From an uncultured Oscillospiraceae bacterium (GTDB lineage: Bacteria; Bacillota; Clostridia; Oscillospirales; Oscillospiraceae): DNA of 32,016 nt. Under the pieces are notes generated by a model that ran no database searches, had not been told where the DNA came from, and saw nothing but the letters and a program-made list of their open reading frames with translations. The DNA is taken from assembly GCA_947168655.1 (NCBI GenBank), contig CAMVMU010000016.1, positions 1-32,016 of the forward strand, given 5' to 3'. The position numbers were made by a program, and so were the translations under genes. Each line of letters starts with the position of its first letter. Position 1 is the first letter of the stretch. Below are positions 19,634 to 24,980 of the stretch, one piece after another.

Positions 19634-20974
19634 ATGCTGAAGAAAAACCAGGTATATTCCGCCGTCATCGAGGGTTACTCCTCCGAGGGACTGGGCATCG
19701 CCCGGATCGACGGGCAGGTGGTGTTCGTCCACAACGCCGTCCGTGGCGAGCAGTGCGACGTGCTGATCCTGAAGGTGCTGAAAAACACCGCCTTCGGCAA
19801 GGTCGCTTCCCTCATGGAGCCGTCGCCCCACCGGGTGGAGCCGGACTGCCCCTATTACGCCAGATGCGGCGGCTGCGACTTCCGCCACATGGACTACGAG
19901 GAGGAGTTGTGGGCCAAGCGGCGGCGGGTGCAGGACGCCCTGACGCGGCTGGGCGGCAGCGACGTGACTGTGGAGGAGATTCTCGGCGCGGCAGAGCCGC
20001 TGCGTTACCGCAACAAGAGCCAGTATCCCATCGCCCCGGACGGGGCGGTGGGGTTCTACCGCGCCCGCACCCATCAGGTGACGGATGTGACGCACTGCCT
20101 CATCCAGAAGCCCCAGGCGGACGCGGCGGCGGAGGCGGTGCGGCAGTATATCCGGCGGTTCGGCGTGTCCTGTTACGACGAGGGCACGGGCAGCGGCCTG
20201 CTGCGCCATCTCTACGTGCGCACCAACGCGGCAGGAGAGAGCCTTATCTGCCTGCTGGTGAACGGCGGGAAGCTGCCCCATGAGGCAGAACTGGTTGACA
20301 TAATTCAAAAACACGTGCCCAAAGCCGTGGGCGTGGTGCTGGGCGTCAACACCCGGTTGGGCAACACCATCCTGGGTGAGGAGTACCGCACCCTCTGGGG
20401 GGCGGACACCATTACTGATACCCTGTGCGGCCTGACCTTCCGGCTGTCGGTGCCCTCTTTCTACCAGGTCAACCGGGACCAGGCGGAGCGGCTCTACGAA
20501 AAGGCGGTGGAATTCGCAGGTCTCACCGGGCAGGAAACGGTGCTGGACCTCTACTGCGGCGCTGGGACCATCACCCAGGTGATGGCGCGCCACGCAAAGG
20601 AGGTCATCGGCGCCGAGATCGTGCCGGAGGCCATTGCCGACGCCGAGGAGAACGCCCGCCGCAACGGTATCGATAACGTCCGCTTTTTCTGCGGTGACGC
20701 ATCGGCGGTGGCGGCGGATTTCGCCGAAAAGAATCTGCGGCCCGACGTGATCTGCGTGGACCCGCCCCGGAAGGGTCTGGCCCCCGAGGTGGTGGCGGCG
20801 GCTGCCTCCATGGAGCCGAAGCGCATCGTGTACGTCTCCTGTGACCCCGCCACCCTGGGCCGTGACGTGAAGCGGTTTGCTGAATTTGGCTATTTCGCTC
20901 ACCGTGCTGTTGCGGTGGACCTGTTCCCGAGAACGGCGCATGTGGAATCAGTCGTGTTGATGTCTCGAGCCTGA
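19634..20974 (+). CDS. rlmD: 23S rRNA (uracil-C5)-methyltransferase, RlmD/RumA family
   Basis: 446-residue SAM-dependent methyltransferase that makes 5-methyluridine in 23S rRNA. It has an N-terminal TRAM domain (about 1-60), an iron-sulfur site Cys72, Cys78, Cys81 and Cys155, the SAM motif DLYCGAGTIT (305-314), the catalytic Cys403 in YVSCDPATLGRD and the general base Glu438 in HVESVVLMSRA. Which uridine it modifies cannot be told. One base separates it from the upstream gene, whose end contains the ribosome site region. Its last 12 codons plus 17 bases are duplicated 541 bp downstream, marking this 3' end as an insertion point. The AT-rich island begins right after the stop. Confidence 0.95.
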   Translation: MLKKNQVYSAVIEGYSSEGLGIARIDGQVVFVHNAVRGEQCDVLILKVLKNTAFGKVASLMEPSPHRVEPDCPYYARCGGCDFRHMDYEEELWAKRRRVQDALTRLGGSDVTVEEILGAAEPLRYRNKSQYPIAPDGAVGFYRARTHQVTDVTHCLIQKPQADAAAEAVRQYIRRFGVSCYDEGTGSGLLRHLYVRTNAAGESLICLLVNGGKLPHEAELVDIIQKHVPKAVGVVLGVNTRLGNTILGEEYRTLWGADTITDTLCGLTFRLSVPSFYQVNRDQAERLYEKAVEFAGLTGQETVLDLYCGAGTITQVMARHAKEVIGAEIVPEAIADAEENARRNGIDNVRFFCGDASAVAADFAEKNLRPDVICVDPPRKGLAPEVVAAAASMEPKRIVYVSCDPATLGRDVKRFAEFGYFAHRAVAVDLFPRTAHVESVVLMSRA

Positions 20975-20991
20975 GTTGAGGCTACAGATTA
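20939..20991 (+). repeat. rlmD-end repeat, copy 1 (inside rlmD)
   Basis: 53 bp covering the codons for HVESVVLMSRA, the stop codon and 17 bases after it. It is repeated at 21480-21532 with three mismatches, all at silent third codon positions. It has the look of an attachment site. Confidence 0.85.
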
Positions 20992-21017
20992 AATACCTGA
21001 TGGGAAAGGAAATTGAA

Positions 21018-21395
21018 ATGGATGACTGGAGATTGAGAGGGCAAGAAGAATATCTAAAGGATTTGACATTTTATAAAGTCAGATTTCCGGATTTTTGGAT
21101 AAAGGCATATGCTGAGAAAAATGCGTTTTATCAAATGATTTCAACCGAAGCTCATCGGTTTGTTGAACAGATGCGGCGGGGAGAAGAATATCTGGAAGGC
21201 GAAAAGATTCAGCACTTCTGGCATGAACATTGCGAGTTCTGTTGGGAAAAAGCGACAACGGATAAGGAATGCGTTTTCTACTGCACGAAAGATATGCGCT
21301 ATTGGGTATGCCCAGACTGTTTTATTGATTTTAAAAAATCATTCGGATGGGTAGAAAAAGAATCAACCGAGCTATTTGATGAGCATGAACAATAA
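21018..21395 (+). CDS. Conserved small protein with a C-terminal zinc ribbon
   Basis: 125-residue hypothetical protein. The N-terminal half is helical and charged (MDDWRLRGQEEYLKDLTFYK). The C-terminal half carries a likely zinc ribbon: HEHCEFCWEKA, then FYCTKDMRYW and CPDCF, giving C-x2-C and C-x2-C pairs plus an extra Cys. I recall similar short proteins in other Clostridia without a known role. The frame opens at a TTG at 20976, but AAAGGA at 21005-21010 points to the ATG at 21018. It is AT-rich compared with rlmD and lies between the two copies of the rlmD-end repeat, so it was probably brought in by the inserting element. Confidence 0.8.
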   Translation: MDDWRLRGQEEYLKDLTFYKVRFPDFWIKAYAEKNAFYQMISTEAHRFVEQMRRGEEYLEGEKIQHFWHEHCEFCWEKATTDKECVFYCTKDMRYWVCPDCFIDFKKSFGWVEKESTELFDEHEQ

Positions 21396-21400
21396 TGTGT

Positions 21401-21482
21401 TCAACGGCATATTCCTGACGCCGGGGGTCGTGTGGGCAGCGTAGATAACGGCATTTTTATCCATGCCATTGTCCCAAGGCAC
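21401..21482 (+). repeat. 82-bp module, copy A
   Basis: 82 bp matching 22449-22530 with nine mismatches. Read in the frame of the rlmD tail that follows, it encodes QRHIPDAGGRVGSVDNGIF and on; six of nine differences are silent third-position changes and two are Ile/Val. It is joined in frame to the rlmD-end repeat but has no start codon after the stop at 21393-21395. Confidence 0.85.
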
Positions 21483-21532
21483 GTCGAATCAGTCGTATTG
21501 ATGTCTCGAGCCTGAGTTGAGGCTACAGATTA
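21480..21532 (+). repeat. rlmD-end repeat, copy 2
   Basis: 53 bp that again encodes HVESVVLMSRA and a stop, with silent differences from the genuine rlmD end at three positions. It follows module A directly and sits before the 283-codon gene. It looks like the far attachment site of an insertion, or a tail from a related rlmD allele. Confidence 0.85.
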
Positions 21533-21580
21533 GATGTTGGTAATTTTTGCAATCGATTATTAAGTCGAGGTGAGCAGAGA

Positions 21581-22432
21581 ATGGATGAGGGCCTGAAAAC
21601 ACTATTTGCCCTGTATAAAGGAATGAGCTGGAGTGAAATAAATATTACCGAAGAAGCGTTTTCTGCTGCAAAAAGGCAAGGTTATCTCTTTGATTATCCC
21701 AAATATGAATCTCATTCAGAATCCTTGAATAGAAGACATGATCTTCTTTCGCAGATTGAACCACGGGATATTGCGAACGCTTTTCTTTTCAGTCTGTCGA
21801 CACGTAAACTCGAATACAGATCCGCTCTCGGAAGTTATTATTACTTAATAGCGATTCCCGAGCATGATTTTATGAACAGCCATAATGAAACACTCGCAGC
21901 GGCCGGCGTTCATTGTTATCTTTGCGGGTGGTCTGCGTGGAAAACCATACCGAGCAAGCAATCCATCAAGAGCGGATATAACTTTTATAATTGGCTGCGA
22001 TACAAATACGGCGGCAGTCCTATCGGGAACATGGATATCAATTATGCACTTTTTGATCTGGAACAGTTTTTAATGCTTCCGAAAGTTATGCCTACGGAAG
22101 AAGACAAACAAATCTTTATGGCAATATTATCCTGCGTTGACTGTTTGAGCAGTTCGGATAAAGCAGGCAAGCTCAGAGACACTATTACAAAAGCAAAAAT
22201 ATTGAAGAGCAATAAAGATGAATTATCTGTTCTGTTGGGAGAGTTGGGAATCTGCGGTATTCTTGCAAGCAATGATTTCCCAGCTTATGATACTTACTTT
22301 GCGAATGAATATGAAAGGGATCCGGTAGAATATAAGAATGACTTTGCATATCCCGTCAACAGATGGCATGCGATGGATGGTATCAATACTGAAAAGCTAA
22401 ACACAGTTTTTGGCTTTGCGTTGAAGCCTTAA
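21581..22432 (+). CDS. Hypothetical protein, AT-rich island
   Basis: 283-residue soluble protein I cannot assign. It looks mostly helical, with no signal peptide or membrane helix. A single CxxC (Cys112-Cys115 in GVHCYLCGWSAW) and an aromatic-rich middle (YNFYNWLRYKYGG) stand out; there is no known catalytic motif. CGAGGTGA at 21566-21573 precedes the ATG. Base composition is far more AT-rich than rlmD or the genes after 23540. It is bounded by repeats on both sides, so it behaves like one unit of a modular island. An immunity or defence-associated role would be guesswork. Confidence 0.75.
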   Translation: MDEGLKTLFALYKGMSWSEINITEEAFSAAKRQGYLFDYPKYESHSESLNRRHDLLSQIEPRDIANAFLFSLSTRKLEYRSALGSYYYLIAIPEHDFMNSHNETLAAAGVHCYLCGWSAWKTIPSKQSIKSGYNFYNWLRYKYGGSPIGNMDINYALFDLEQFLMLPKVMPTEEDKQIFMAILSCVDCLSSSDKAGKLRDTITKAKILKSNKDELSVLLGELGICGILASNDFPAYDTYFANEYERDPVEYKNDFAYPVNRWHAMDGINTEKLNTVFGFALKP

Positions 22433-22448
22433 CTTCAGTGACTGCCGA

Positions 22449-22530
22449 TCAACGGCATATTCCTGACGCCGAGGGTCGTGTGGGCAGCGTAGATAATGGC
22501 GTTTTTATTCACGCTGTTGTCCCGAGGCAT
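22449..22530 (+). repeat. 82-bp module, copy B
   Basis: Second copy of the module, about 89% identical to 21401-21482. Here the matching stretch is not followed by the rlmD tail; the frame (22438-22659, 73 codons) continues HAESMDLLCREAEQAERR and ends just inside the next gene. It is the remnant or tail of a coding sequence rather than a convincing gene. Confidence 0.8.
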
Positions 22531-22630
22531 GCGGAGAGCATGGATCTTCTTTGCCGGGAAGCTGAACAGGCAGAAAGACGCATTTTATTGGGCTGTGGAT
22601 CTGAAGGCAGGTTTATGAACAGGACGGAAG

Positions 22631-23491
22631 ATGATCATGAAAGCAATCAATCAGAATGAATTAATGAATCACTTCGGTGAGTTTTATTCTTTTCTCGAAA
22701 AAAATGTTCATAAGTGGCTGCGGACGTTCTTTGCGGATAAAGAAGCGTTTATTGCTTTTTTAGATGATGAGGATATTCGTGTATTGGCCTATCATGATGA
22801 GCAAAACAAGCTGTGCTGCGCAGTCATTCTGAATGAGAACGCAATTGTTACGGCTGTTTTTTCAGACAAAGCGGAAAAGGAAGCGTGTTATTCCACTGTT
22901 TTAGATGATGTTGAAAGCTTGGTGAAGGATCTGCATTATTCGAGCATCTATTATGGCGCCGGCTATGAATCATATGGTGTTTTTTACAATGACAGAGATG
23001 AAAACGCCTTTGGCGATTATCTGAAGCGGCATGGATTCGTCGTTGAATCCGTTTCCTATGATATAAAGCACAAAACATCAGACCTCAAACAGGACAGCGG
23101 ATCGGAGAACGGTTCTGTGTTGAAAACCGGCCGTGAGCTGTTTGAAGACGCCGGGGCACTTGATGATTCTGTTTTGAATTCCATCAGGGAGGGTTTCTGC
23201 AGGTTTCCTTCTGATACATGTTACATTGCTGTCAGAGATGGAAAAAGGGACATCCGGGGATATGCGTTTCTTGACGCATGTTCCTGCGCAATTGATATTT
23301 TGAGCATATATGAAATGGATCCGGCTGCCTGCAGGAAAATAAAAAGGGAATTGCTGTCATCGATTGCCGCTGAACTGAACGCAATGGGTGTTGATTCATT
23401 GATTGAGACGAACGTCGATCAACTGGAGTGTCAGAGACTCACACATCATTTTGAAGTGTGCGGGAGATATGAAACGCTGGCAAAGGGATAA
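22631..23491 (+). CDS. Possible GNAT-like protein, AT-rich island
   Basis: 286-residue soluble protein. Two similar alpha/beta halves can be seen; the second (about 175-285) has strands CYIAVRDGKRDIRGYAFLDA and AIDILSIYEM, then a helix and IETNVDQLECQRLTHHFEVCG, which recalls the C-terminal part of a GNAT acetyltransferase (xNxxxxxxYxxxGF) but without a clear acetyl-CoA loop. The first half ends in YLKRHGFVVESVSYDIKHK, again GNAT-like. Start: ATG at 22631 with AGGA six bases upstream; ATG 22637 is also possible. AT-rich like its two upstream neighbours. Activity unknown; the family guess is weak. Confidence 0.7.
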   Translation: MIMKAINQNELMNHFGEFYSFLEKNVHKWLRTFFADKEAFIAFLDDEDIRVLAYHDEQNKLCCAVILNENAIVTAVFSDKAEKEACYSTVLDDVESLVKDLHYSSIYYGAGYESYGVFYNDRDENAFGDYLKRHGFVVESVSYDIKHKTSDLKQDSGSENGSVLKTGRELFEDAGALDDSVLNSIREGFCRFPSDTCYIAVRDGKRDIRGYAFLDACSCAIDILSIYEMDPAACRKIKRELLSSIAAELNAMGVDSLIETNVDQLECQRLTHHFEVCGRYETLAKG

Positions 23492-23546
23492 TGATTCATC
23501 GGGCATAAGAAACAGCGAAGACGGAATCGTTCAAGGGGAGACAGAA

Positions 23547-24980
23547 GTGAAAGTCATCAGTTTTTATGACAGCGACAATCAGGCCCACTGGCTGGAGGAG
23601 ATCCAGAGAAGCGACTGGCGAGCCGGCGCGTTTCTCCACAACCTCTTGAGCAAAGGCACGTTCTTTGACGCGGTGGGCCAGCACTCAAAGGTGCTGCTGC
23701 TGACGGAAGGCGATGAATTGATCTCCTTCTGCACCTATGCCGAGAAGGACGATATCCAGCCCACGGAACTGACGCCGTGGGTGGGTTTTGTCTATACGTT
23801 TCCCGCCCACCGGGGACACCGCTATGCGGGACTGCTCTTTGACGAGGTCCGGCGCCTGGCCGGAGAGGAGCAGGTGAAAGAGGTCTATCTCTCAACAAAC
23901 CATATCGGATTGTATGAGAAATACGGTTTTACATACAAAACGCAGATGAATGACATGGACGGGGAGCCGTCAAGGGTCTATGTCCGGAAGATCGGGTGTG
24001 AAAGAAAGATTCTGGAAACGAAACGGCTGATCCTCCGGGCGTGGGACGAAGCGGACGCGGAGGAGTGCTATCGATATGCCAAGGATCCCCGGGTGGGTCC
24101 TGCCGCCGGGTGGCCCGTCCACACAAGTGCGGAGAATACGAGGCAGGTGATCCGGGACATTCTTGCCGTGCCGGAGACCTATGCCATCGTGTGGAAGGAA
24201 ACCGGGCTGCCCGTGGGGAGCATCGGCTTGCATTTCCACAGCGATCTGGCGAAAAAGGACGATGAAGCCGAGTTGGGCTACTGGCTGGGCGTCCCCTGGT
24301 GGGGGCGTGGCATCGTGCCGGAGGCGGCGGGAGAGGTGCTCCGCCACGCTTTCGAGGACCTGAATCTTCAGCGGGTCTGGTGCGGGTACTTTGACGGCAA
24401 CGAGAAGTCCAGGCGCGTGCAGGAGAAGCTGGGCTTCCGGTATCAGTGGACCACCGAGGACGTGCCGGTCCCGCAGATGGGCGAGACGCGCCGGGGAATT
24501 GCCAACCTTCTGACCCGGGCGGAATGGCTGGAAGAGAGAGAAACAAAAAAGCAGAAGAACGCCATTGCATACCGAATGATTGAACCCGCAGAGATGGAAA
24601 AGCTGTGGGAGCTGCAGAGAGCTTATAAAGCCGAGATCGGGGAGAACGAGCCGGGCAAAGAGGATTGCGTCAGGCTGGCCGCTGCAATGGACAAGGGACA
24701 GATCCTGTTCTTCGGCGCATGGGACGGGGCGGTGCTGGCAGGCTGCTGCTCCGTTACGGTGGGCTTTTCCACGTTCGACTACGCCCCCGGCGGCGTATTC
24801 GAGGACTTCTATATCCGTCCGGCATACAGGCACAGGGGGATTGCCCCCGCCCTGGTGCGGTTTGCGTACAGCGAAAGCGGCGTCAGTTCCATGACGGTGG
24901 GCTGCGCAGACTGCGACGTGGAGATGTACCGGGCACTGGGCTTCTCTGTCAGACTGGGAAATCTGCTGGCCTTTGAGTGA
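23547..24980 (+). CDS. Fusion of three GNAT acetyltransferase domains
   Basis: 477-residue protein with three consecutive GNAT domains. Domain 1 (about 1-150) has the acetyl-CoA loop PAHRGHRYAGLLF and the ending GLYEKYGF. Domain 2 (about 155-330) is RimJ/RimL-like, beginning ETKRLILRAWDEADAEECYR, with loop VPWWGRGIVPEAA. Domain 3 (about 340-477) has FYIRPAYRHRGIAPALV and ends DVEMYRALGFSVRLGN. All three loops look intact. The start is GTG at 23547 after AAGGGGAG; the open frame reaches back to 23403 over the previous gene. GC content returns to the host level here, so the island ends just upstream. Substrates are unknown. Forty-seven bases separate it from the YitT gene. Confidence 0.88.
   Translation: MKVISFYDSDNQAHWLEEIQRSDWRAGAFLHNLLSKGTFFDAVGQHSKVLLLTEGDELISFCTYAEKDDIQPTELTPWVGFVYTFPAHRGHRYAGLLFDEVRRLAGEEQVKEVYLSTNHIGLYEKYGFTYKTQMNDMDGEPSRVYVRKIGCERKILETKRLILRAWDEADAEECYRYAKDPRVGPAAGWPVHTSAENTRQVIRDILAVPETYAIVWKETGLPVGSIGLHFHSDLAKKDDEAELGYWLGVPWWGRGIVPEAAGEVLRHAFEDLNLQRVWCGYFDGNEKSRRVQEKLGFRYQWTTEDVPVPQMGETRRGIANLLTRAEWLEERETKKQKNAIAYRMIEPAEMEKLWELQRAYKAEIGENEPGKEDCVRLAAAMDKGQILFFGAWDGAVLAGCCSVTVGFSTFDYAPGGVFEDFYIRPAYRHRGIAPALVRFAYSESGVSSMTVGCADCDVEMYRALGFSVRLGNLLAFE

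Follow-up and report, generated by a model that had tools for sequence, protein, structure and literature searches.

A probable array of mobile single-gene cassettes at the end of rlmD in an uncultured Oscillospiraceae bacterium

Why should the end of a housekeeping gene occur twice within a few hundred base pairs? In the DNA analysed here (the window: all 32,016 nucleotides of positions 1 to 32,016 of contig CAMVMU010000016.1, assembly GCA_947168655.1, an uncultured Oscillospiraceae bacterium; contig C16 of an assembly that is 76% complete), the final codons of rlmD, its stop codon and 17 further bases are found again 541 bp downstream. The repeat reported in a preliminary description of this DNA is confirmed: the copies at 20938-20994 and 21479-21535, spaced by exactly 541, are 93% identical over 57 nt, and the window contains two matches to a 47-nt core with two IUPAC positions, against none in 100 dinucleotide shuffles. 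The three mismatches within 53 bp (CAT/CAC, GTG/GTC, GTG/GTA) are indeed silent in the rlmD frame; two of them lie to the left of a GA dinucleotide, where the rlmD half faces an element half, and one lies in the sequence that we call the leader. The preliminary description had taken the copies for a probable pair of attachment sites around a relic or an element moved in trans, the second looking like the end of another rlmD allele. A second repeat pair that it had missed (21401-21452 and 22449-22500, 96%) leads to a different reading, since it makes the second rlmD-like end the right edge of a longer element followed by a leader, and the window therefore holds three junctions, with GA at 20945, 21486 and 22534, and no mere pair. 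What had appeared to be a single relic is better described as the opening unit in a tandem row of single-gene cassettes that have a conserved element dedicated to them, and the supposed second allele as a cassette leader joined to such an element. With moderate confidence, we interpret the region from 20945 to a limit between 23491 and 24015 as a hypervariable array in which single-gene cassettes, inserted site-specifically, follow the anchoring 3' end of rlmD and are presumably moved by serine recombinases.

The layout of this region is rlmD, gene 1 with its element, gene 2 with its element, and gene 3, which probably belongs to a cassette 3 (Table 1). The three stretches that carry these genes are AT-rich, with GC contents of 0.39, 0.40 and 0.43 against 0.65 for rlmD, and their genes share the direction of rlmD. 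The gene between the two rlmD ends had been described as an AT-rich zinc-ribbon gene; it is AT-rich, but the zinc-ribbon label found no support in the family searches, its protein having no Pfam match at E<=1, nor any NCBIfam or PADLOC match. A CxxC...CxxC pattern is seen in this protein by eye only, and relatives of the gene occur in 4 of 98 other genomes. As had been noted, no recombinase gene lies between the copies. The resemblance of leader 3 to a leader of the G365 array (alignment score 60; maximum in 200 shuffles 36) makes gene 3 probably a third cassette, the closing element of which has probably been lost or escapes recognition. At the right edge, a triple-GNAT open reading frame (23403-24980) aligns with the DNA of the relative G011 only from 24015, and the first of its GNAT domains may have been added there.

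Table 1. Features of the rlmD-anchored array, in window coordinates.
Feature	Position	Strand	Remarks
rlmD, 23S rRNA uracil methyltransferase, array anchor	19634..20974	+	Pfam PF05958 and TRAM
Junction 1 core CATGTG|GA (His-Val-Glu codons)	20939..20946	+	
Cassette 1, 541 bp: leader, one gene, element	20945..21485	+	
Cassette 1 gene	20976..21395	+	TTG start, 139 aa; ATG start at 21018, 125 aa
Element 1, conserved repeat, ends TTGTCCCAAGGCACGTC	21397..21485	+	model R1, aligned copies
Leader 2 (second 'rlmD end')	21486..21535	+	potential ESVVLMSRA + stop in rlmD frame, then CTACAGATTA-like bases
Cassette 2, 1048 bp	21486..22533	+	
Cassette 2 gene, 283 aa	21581..22432	+	PfkB match weak, E 0.23, below cut-off
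Element 2	22446..22533	+	repeat comparison, aligned copies, model search
Leader 3	22534..22627	+	about two thirds identity over 92 bp with leader in G365 array
Gene of probable cassette 3, 286 aa	22631..23491	+	no Pfam match at E<=1; closing element not recognised
Right limit of array, somewhere inside	23492..24015	.	81% DNA identity to G011 resumes at 24015

The junctions follow one scheme: an element end (YCCRARGCAYGTN) or an rlmD-anchor end (CAYGTN), next GA, and after it any of several leaders. GA is present in 46 of 49 aligned elements, in one of these 46 out of register (3 further elements could not be aligned), and in 26 of 29 aligned anchors or sites, where the alignment pattern itself contains GA and favours it. 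Within rlmD the junction corresponds to CAY GTN GAR, that is, to the residues HVE, and leaders continue the reading frame with ESVVLMSRA in the window, ETVVLMTRMTPENMMDGGSV in L125, ECVTLITHK in L110 and ETVALITRAGL in L118. Because the RlmD tails of relatives diverge right after HVE and leaders continue the frame, we read the rlmD bases from the GA at 20945 onwards, encoding the last nine residues (ESVVLMSRA) and the stop codon, as cassette-derived. The RlmD tails are extremely variable at this point (loci L038-L117 and the loci named by genome): many carry a long extension, LDMDELDLTxAESKATYxEI..., which appears to be element-encoded, and others end in SRQ or IRQ, followed by AATTG-rich hairpin repeats. 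The junction comparison bears out the earlier proposal that the 3' end of rlmD is a junction of attachment type, and the use of rumA/rlmD ends by integrative elements, which that proposal had cited, has a published counterpart in the serine-integrase ICEs in rumA described in PMC4701971.

Searching the DNA of 99 genomes, among them that of the window, yielded more copies of the element, some near rlmD and others in clusters with 1-2 kb between them. An alignment of nineteen copies spans 124 columns with a mean column identity of 74%; the right end is conserved as TATTCACGCTRTTGTCCCRAGGCAYGT, and the upstream part falls into at least two types. Run against 300 genomes of the family, a sequence-only model of 118 positions (R1) matches 25 at E<=1e-3; in 18 of these the match reaches E<=1e-10, the other 7 have weaker matches only, and some single weak matches look like chance (e.g., G172:C5, before an obg-like gene). 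At E<=1e-10 the element is found in 16 of 394 genomes of the order, spread over six families. Of 299 genomes sampled from the phylum, that of the window has a match and 0 of the 298 others do; the three samples have genomes in common, and weak matches are lost under the stricter filters applied. A full element was seen at 3 of 80 rlmD loci (L052, L105, L111). A weaker copy with a degenerate junction is present elsewhere in the window's own genome (G000:C39:7469-7565, locus L200, E 3e-13). A third type of element, ending ACCTGCKGCTCCRARRCATGTN, was seen in L204 (oriented 10137), L257 (oriented 9127) and L273 (oriented 6854), so that the family is wider than model R1 finds.

Several other readings of the element were considered. 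Carriage by phages or plasmids was dismissed, the element (141 bases, distant mode, E<=1e-5) having no match in 72,556 plasmid and 50,697 phage records, and three exact patterns were likewise absent from viral contigs. At E<=1, Rfam gave no match within 20800-22700. Read in frame as QRHIPDAEGRVGSVDNGIFIHAIVPRHVE, the element looked as if it might encode a peptide; this was rejected, as there is no codon periodicity (variation by codon position 0.094/0.104/0.110, from 17 of 44 copies), and several other copies contain stops. Finally, homogenisation of elements within genomes is not supported: mean identity is 0.667 within genomes (36 pairs) against 0.639 between them (1092 pairs), and 170 of 2000 permutations reached the within-genome value.

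To describe the organisation of the arrays, 43 loci were oriented by their elements and their anchors were added; the data are assemblies, one per species and many of them MAGs. The anchor upstream of the first element is rlmD in 21 loci and a serine-recombinase gene in 2, and none is seen in 20, many of which lie at contig ends. Counted among the 21 is L119 (G078), though at about 1690 on its minus strand the cassette follows a four-helix-bundle-like gene and not rlmD; this gene is a possible secondary insertion site with a shortened core. Thirty-seven segments, 2 of them from the window, are closed by an element; their median length is 971 bp and their median GC 0.43, some being merged or weakly bounded (L120_511, L119_9342, L205_7235, L216_5275). 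L105 is the same record as L269, and L052 the same as the G011 contig, and each was counted once among the segments. The longest open reading frame runs in the rlmD direction in 36 of the 37. Family scans covered 36 proteins, namely 35 cassette genes and the third gene of the window, with L120:7203-8345 left out: among the 25 Pfam families listed of 52, GNAT models match 5 proteins, methyltransferase models 4 and 2'-5' RNA ligase 2, with single members such as a HAD hydrolase, a chloramphenicol-phosphotransferase-like protein and DUFs. This comparison demonstrates the element family, the position of the junction and the tandem organisation.

Do these units move? A GNAT cassette behind rlmD in L110 (RGIG5705) and behind a serine-recombinase gene in L124 (G002) is identical at 617 of 635 positions (97%); the match begins at TCGAG, which is the core, and the L110 copy is cut by the contig end. 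The same cassette occurs in G063 (88% over 911 bp) and G153 (95% over 258 bp, to the contig end), and among the 394 genomes of the order its DNA was found in two, G063 at 92% and G263 at 67%. Other cassettes are shared by G283 and G248 (96% over about the whole 673 bp, junction to junction), by G003 and G078, which belong to different families (96% over 1031 bp), and by G003 and G002 (98.9% over 531 bp from a junction). G011 and G365, again of different families, share a gene alone (91.5% over 791 bp), with different leaders and element types. Among the loci whose gene neighbourhoods were compared, only G011 retains most of the genes flanking the array: its rlmD is 89% identical and its downstream genes are kept (at the identity given in Table 1, from a DNA comparison of the window, G011, L230 and L231), and at the syntenic rlmD site it carries three other cassettes. 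An empty site, with one copy of the repeat followed directly by the triple-GNAT gene, had been anticipated and was not found in the window's gene neighbourhood. The earlier reading would have fallen had every relative kept both copies and the gene between them with no differently filled site; the site in G011 is filled differently. The alignments place one cassette at different anchors and in different families, and show a syntenic site that is filled differently. That the array consists of mobile cassettes appears highly likely to us from these comparisons. A very improbable explanation for such sharing is homologous recombination between conserved repeats that serve another function (RNA, coding or regulatory) and shuffle genes in passing: the elements are about 75-95% alike and long enough for exchange within arrays, but at rlmD and recombinase-gene anchors just a few shared bases precede the boundary, the RlmD of L110 is only about 50% identical to that of the window (about 80% in L124, G002), there is no Rfam match in 20800-22700, and the element has no codon periodicity.

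The units might also be the remains of successive rumA-type serine ICEs or IMEs that accreted and decayed, with no dedicated cassette system. Such ICEs are already known, with att sites in rumA and at the 3' end of the integrase gene and with exchanged C-termini (PMC4701971); rlmD tails are a hot spot for many different elements, and L105 and L205 combine an ICE-like tail with cassettes. We nevertheless regard this origin as unlikely, since single genes are closed by one conserved element across six families, entire cassettes are found again in other genomes with 96-97% identity, and closed cassettes contain neither recombinase genes, as searched with the 47 queries of the recombinase survey, nor conjugation genes, as far as the queries used and the 25 of 52 Pfam families listed extend.

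Which enzymes, then, would move the cassettes? Serine recombinases lie directly at the arrays of L124 and L212; both are CcrB-like, 38% identical to each other, and that of L124 reaches 194.6 bits against CcrB, where the cut-off is 900. Another lies about 4 kb beyond the junction in L201. Among 18 loci with CcrB-like recombinase genes that were read, 12 have a gene ending at a GA-centred, mostly HVE-like core; 2 others run into rlmD antisense, and the last 4 are extended, cut or misread. Directly after the recombinase gene of G002 and of G204 comes a cassette with its element; in G002 the simplest reading is that a recombinase-bearing element was inserted between rlmD and an existing array, exactly at a cassette boundary. 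Recombinases of the same family end antisense to rlmD in L230 (G345) and L231 (G166), and the rlmD site may be used in both orientations. Recombinase genes of G298 and G186, which belong to one genus, have the tail AARLIR after the core in common, perhaps a displaced RlmD tail. One serine-recombinase family recurs in G078, G365 and G204 (44-65%), away from the arrays, a weak result from a comparison of the readable subset of serine-recombinase rows from 10 array genomes (29 of 30 read, at least one in a wrong frame).

In the proposed mechanism, a cassette comprises a leader that restores the last RlmD codons and the stop, one gene in the rlmD direction, and a conserved element of about 90-170 bp. 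Exchange would take place at or beside the GA dinucleotide, the first two bases of the HVE Glu codon, so that insertion would swap the RlmD tail and leave the gene unbroken, and the cassette genes would probably be read from the rlmD transcript. Element and leader would act as two half-sites, and large serine recombinases of the rumA/rlmD type, carried on passing ICE- or IME-like elements, would excise and insert cassettes in trans. We infer such mobilisation because recombinase genes of this type end at the same core; a recombinase gene is absent beside most arrays. For serine recombinases as the movers, we put the chances at even or slightly better. Several observations count against the model. 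The recombinase family (17 genomes) and the element (25 genomes) co-occur in 2 of 300 genomes, where about 1.4 are expected by chance, and no member of the recombinase family reaches E<=1e-80 in the genome of the window. The presumed half-sites differ outside the core, recombinase-gene ends being unlike the element there. The gene-only sharing between G011 and G365 is unexplained by plain excision and insertion, other recombinase genes lie near some arrays, and in 20 of the 43 loci no anchor is seen, often because the contig ends.

The main rival to serine recombinases accepts the array as real and has it moved by a tyrosine recombinase, with an inverted repeat in the element as core site (AGCGTAGATA, about 10 variable bases, TATTCACGCT). 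The repeat is predicted in the alignment (9 pairs), few stretches of the element vary as much as its spacer, and single-gene cassettes are typical of tyrosine-recombinase integrons. Genes for tyrosine recombinases are found close to the elements of L122, where they stand past the last one, and of L271; L275 and L276 also have them close to elements or sites. We consider this rival improbable all the same, since the boundaries of shared cassettes fall at the GA core, about 30 bp past the inverted repeat, the repeat pairs show no compensatory change in 19 sequences, and the 47 queries revealed no one tyrosine recombinase at the arrays.

The arrays resemble integrons, well known for stockpiling single genes, and the CALIN: they are tandem, the genes mostly stand alone in their units and point one way (36 of 37 closed segments), a recombination-type element follows each, and the cargo consists of acetyltransferases, methyltransferases and families without a known role (25 of 52 Pfam families listed). 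Like CALIN, which are attC clusters without an integrase, most rlmD-type arrays have no adjoining recombinase gene. They differ from integrons in that their elements are similar in sequence across families and their anchor is the end of a housekeeping gene. In addition, the integron integrase model TIGR02249 found nothing over its cut-off in 29 array genomes or in 14 control genomes, a search without a positive control (weaker tyrosine-recombinase matches lie below the cut-off in all 29), and a simple pattern for the R''/R' boxes of attC (RYYYAAC ... GTTRRRY) matched none of 48 elements on either strand. Integrons are very rare in the Firmicutes, for which PMC9024848 gives one complete integron and a few CALIN.

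The arrays share with rumA-type serine ICEs (Streptococcus; CTn5 in C. difficile) the target at the rumA/rlmD 3' end, the exchange of C-terminal codons and an attachment site inside the 3' end of the integrase gene (PMC4701971). Those ICEs, however, are large and conjugative and bring their own integrase, whereas the units here are one-gene tandem units of about 1 kb with a dedicated element; the window cassettes hold no serine integrase or conjugation genes of their own. SCCmec and the Enterococcus cassette chromosome (ECC) likewise use the 3' end of a gene for an rRNA methyltransferase, where CcrAB serine recombinases insert them, and multiple attR are reported for 16 of 32 ECC (PMC6222049); their target is rlmH and not rlmD, and ECC are 21-78 kb long, with ccr genes and without single-gene arrays. 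The window cassettes contain neither ccr nor any other recombinase gene. The locus is an integron-like cassette array without the integron hallmarks tested and without a recombinase of its own, and it also lacks the hallmarks of SCC and rumA elements. A literature search did not find such arrays described. Somewhat short of an even chance, and hence only tentatively, we suggest a 'serine integron' in Oscillospirales-type Clostridia, in which rumA-type large serine recombinases would shuffle single-gene cassettes into a site that restores the codons at the end of rlmD, or of the recombinase gene itself, and which would have evolved apart from IntI/attC.

If this is true, gut Clostridia would possess a second, unrelated cassette system, and such arrays could arise from other recombination sites. 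How genes become cassettes would be open to experiment, starting from the one gene found with differing leaders and elements in G011 and G365. A route by which accessory genes travel in the gut would be exposed, and part of the striking variability of the RlmD C-terminus would be explained.
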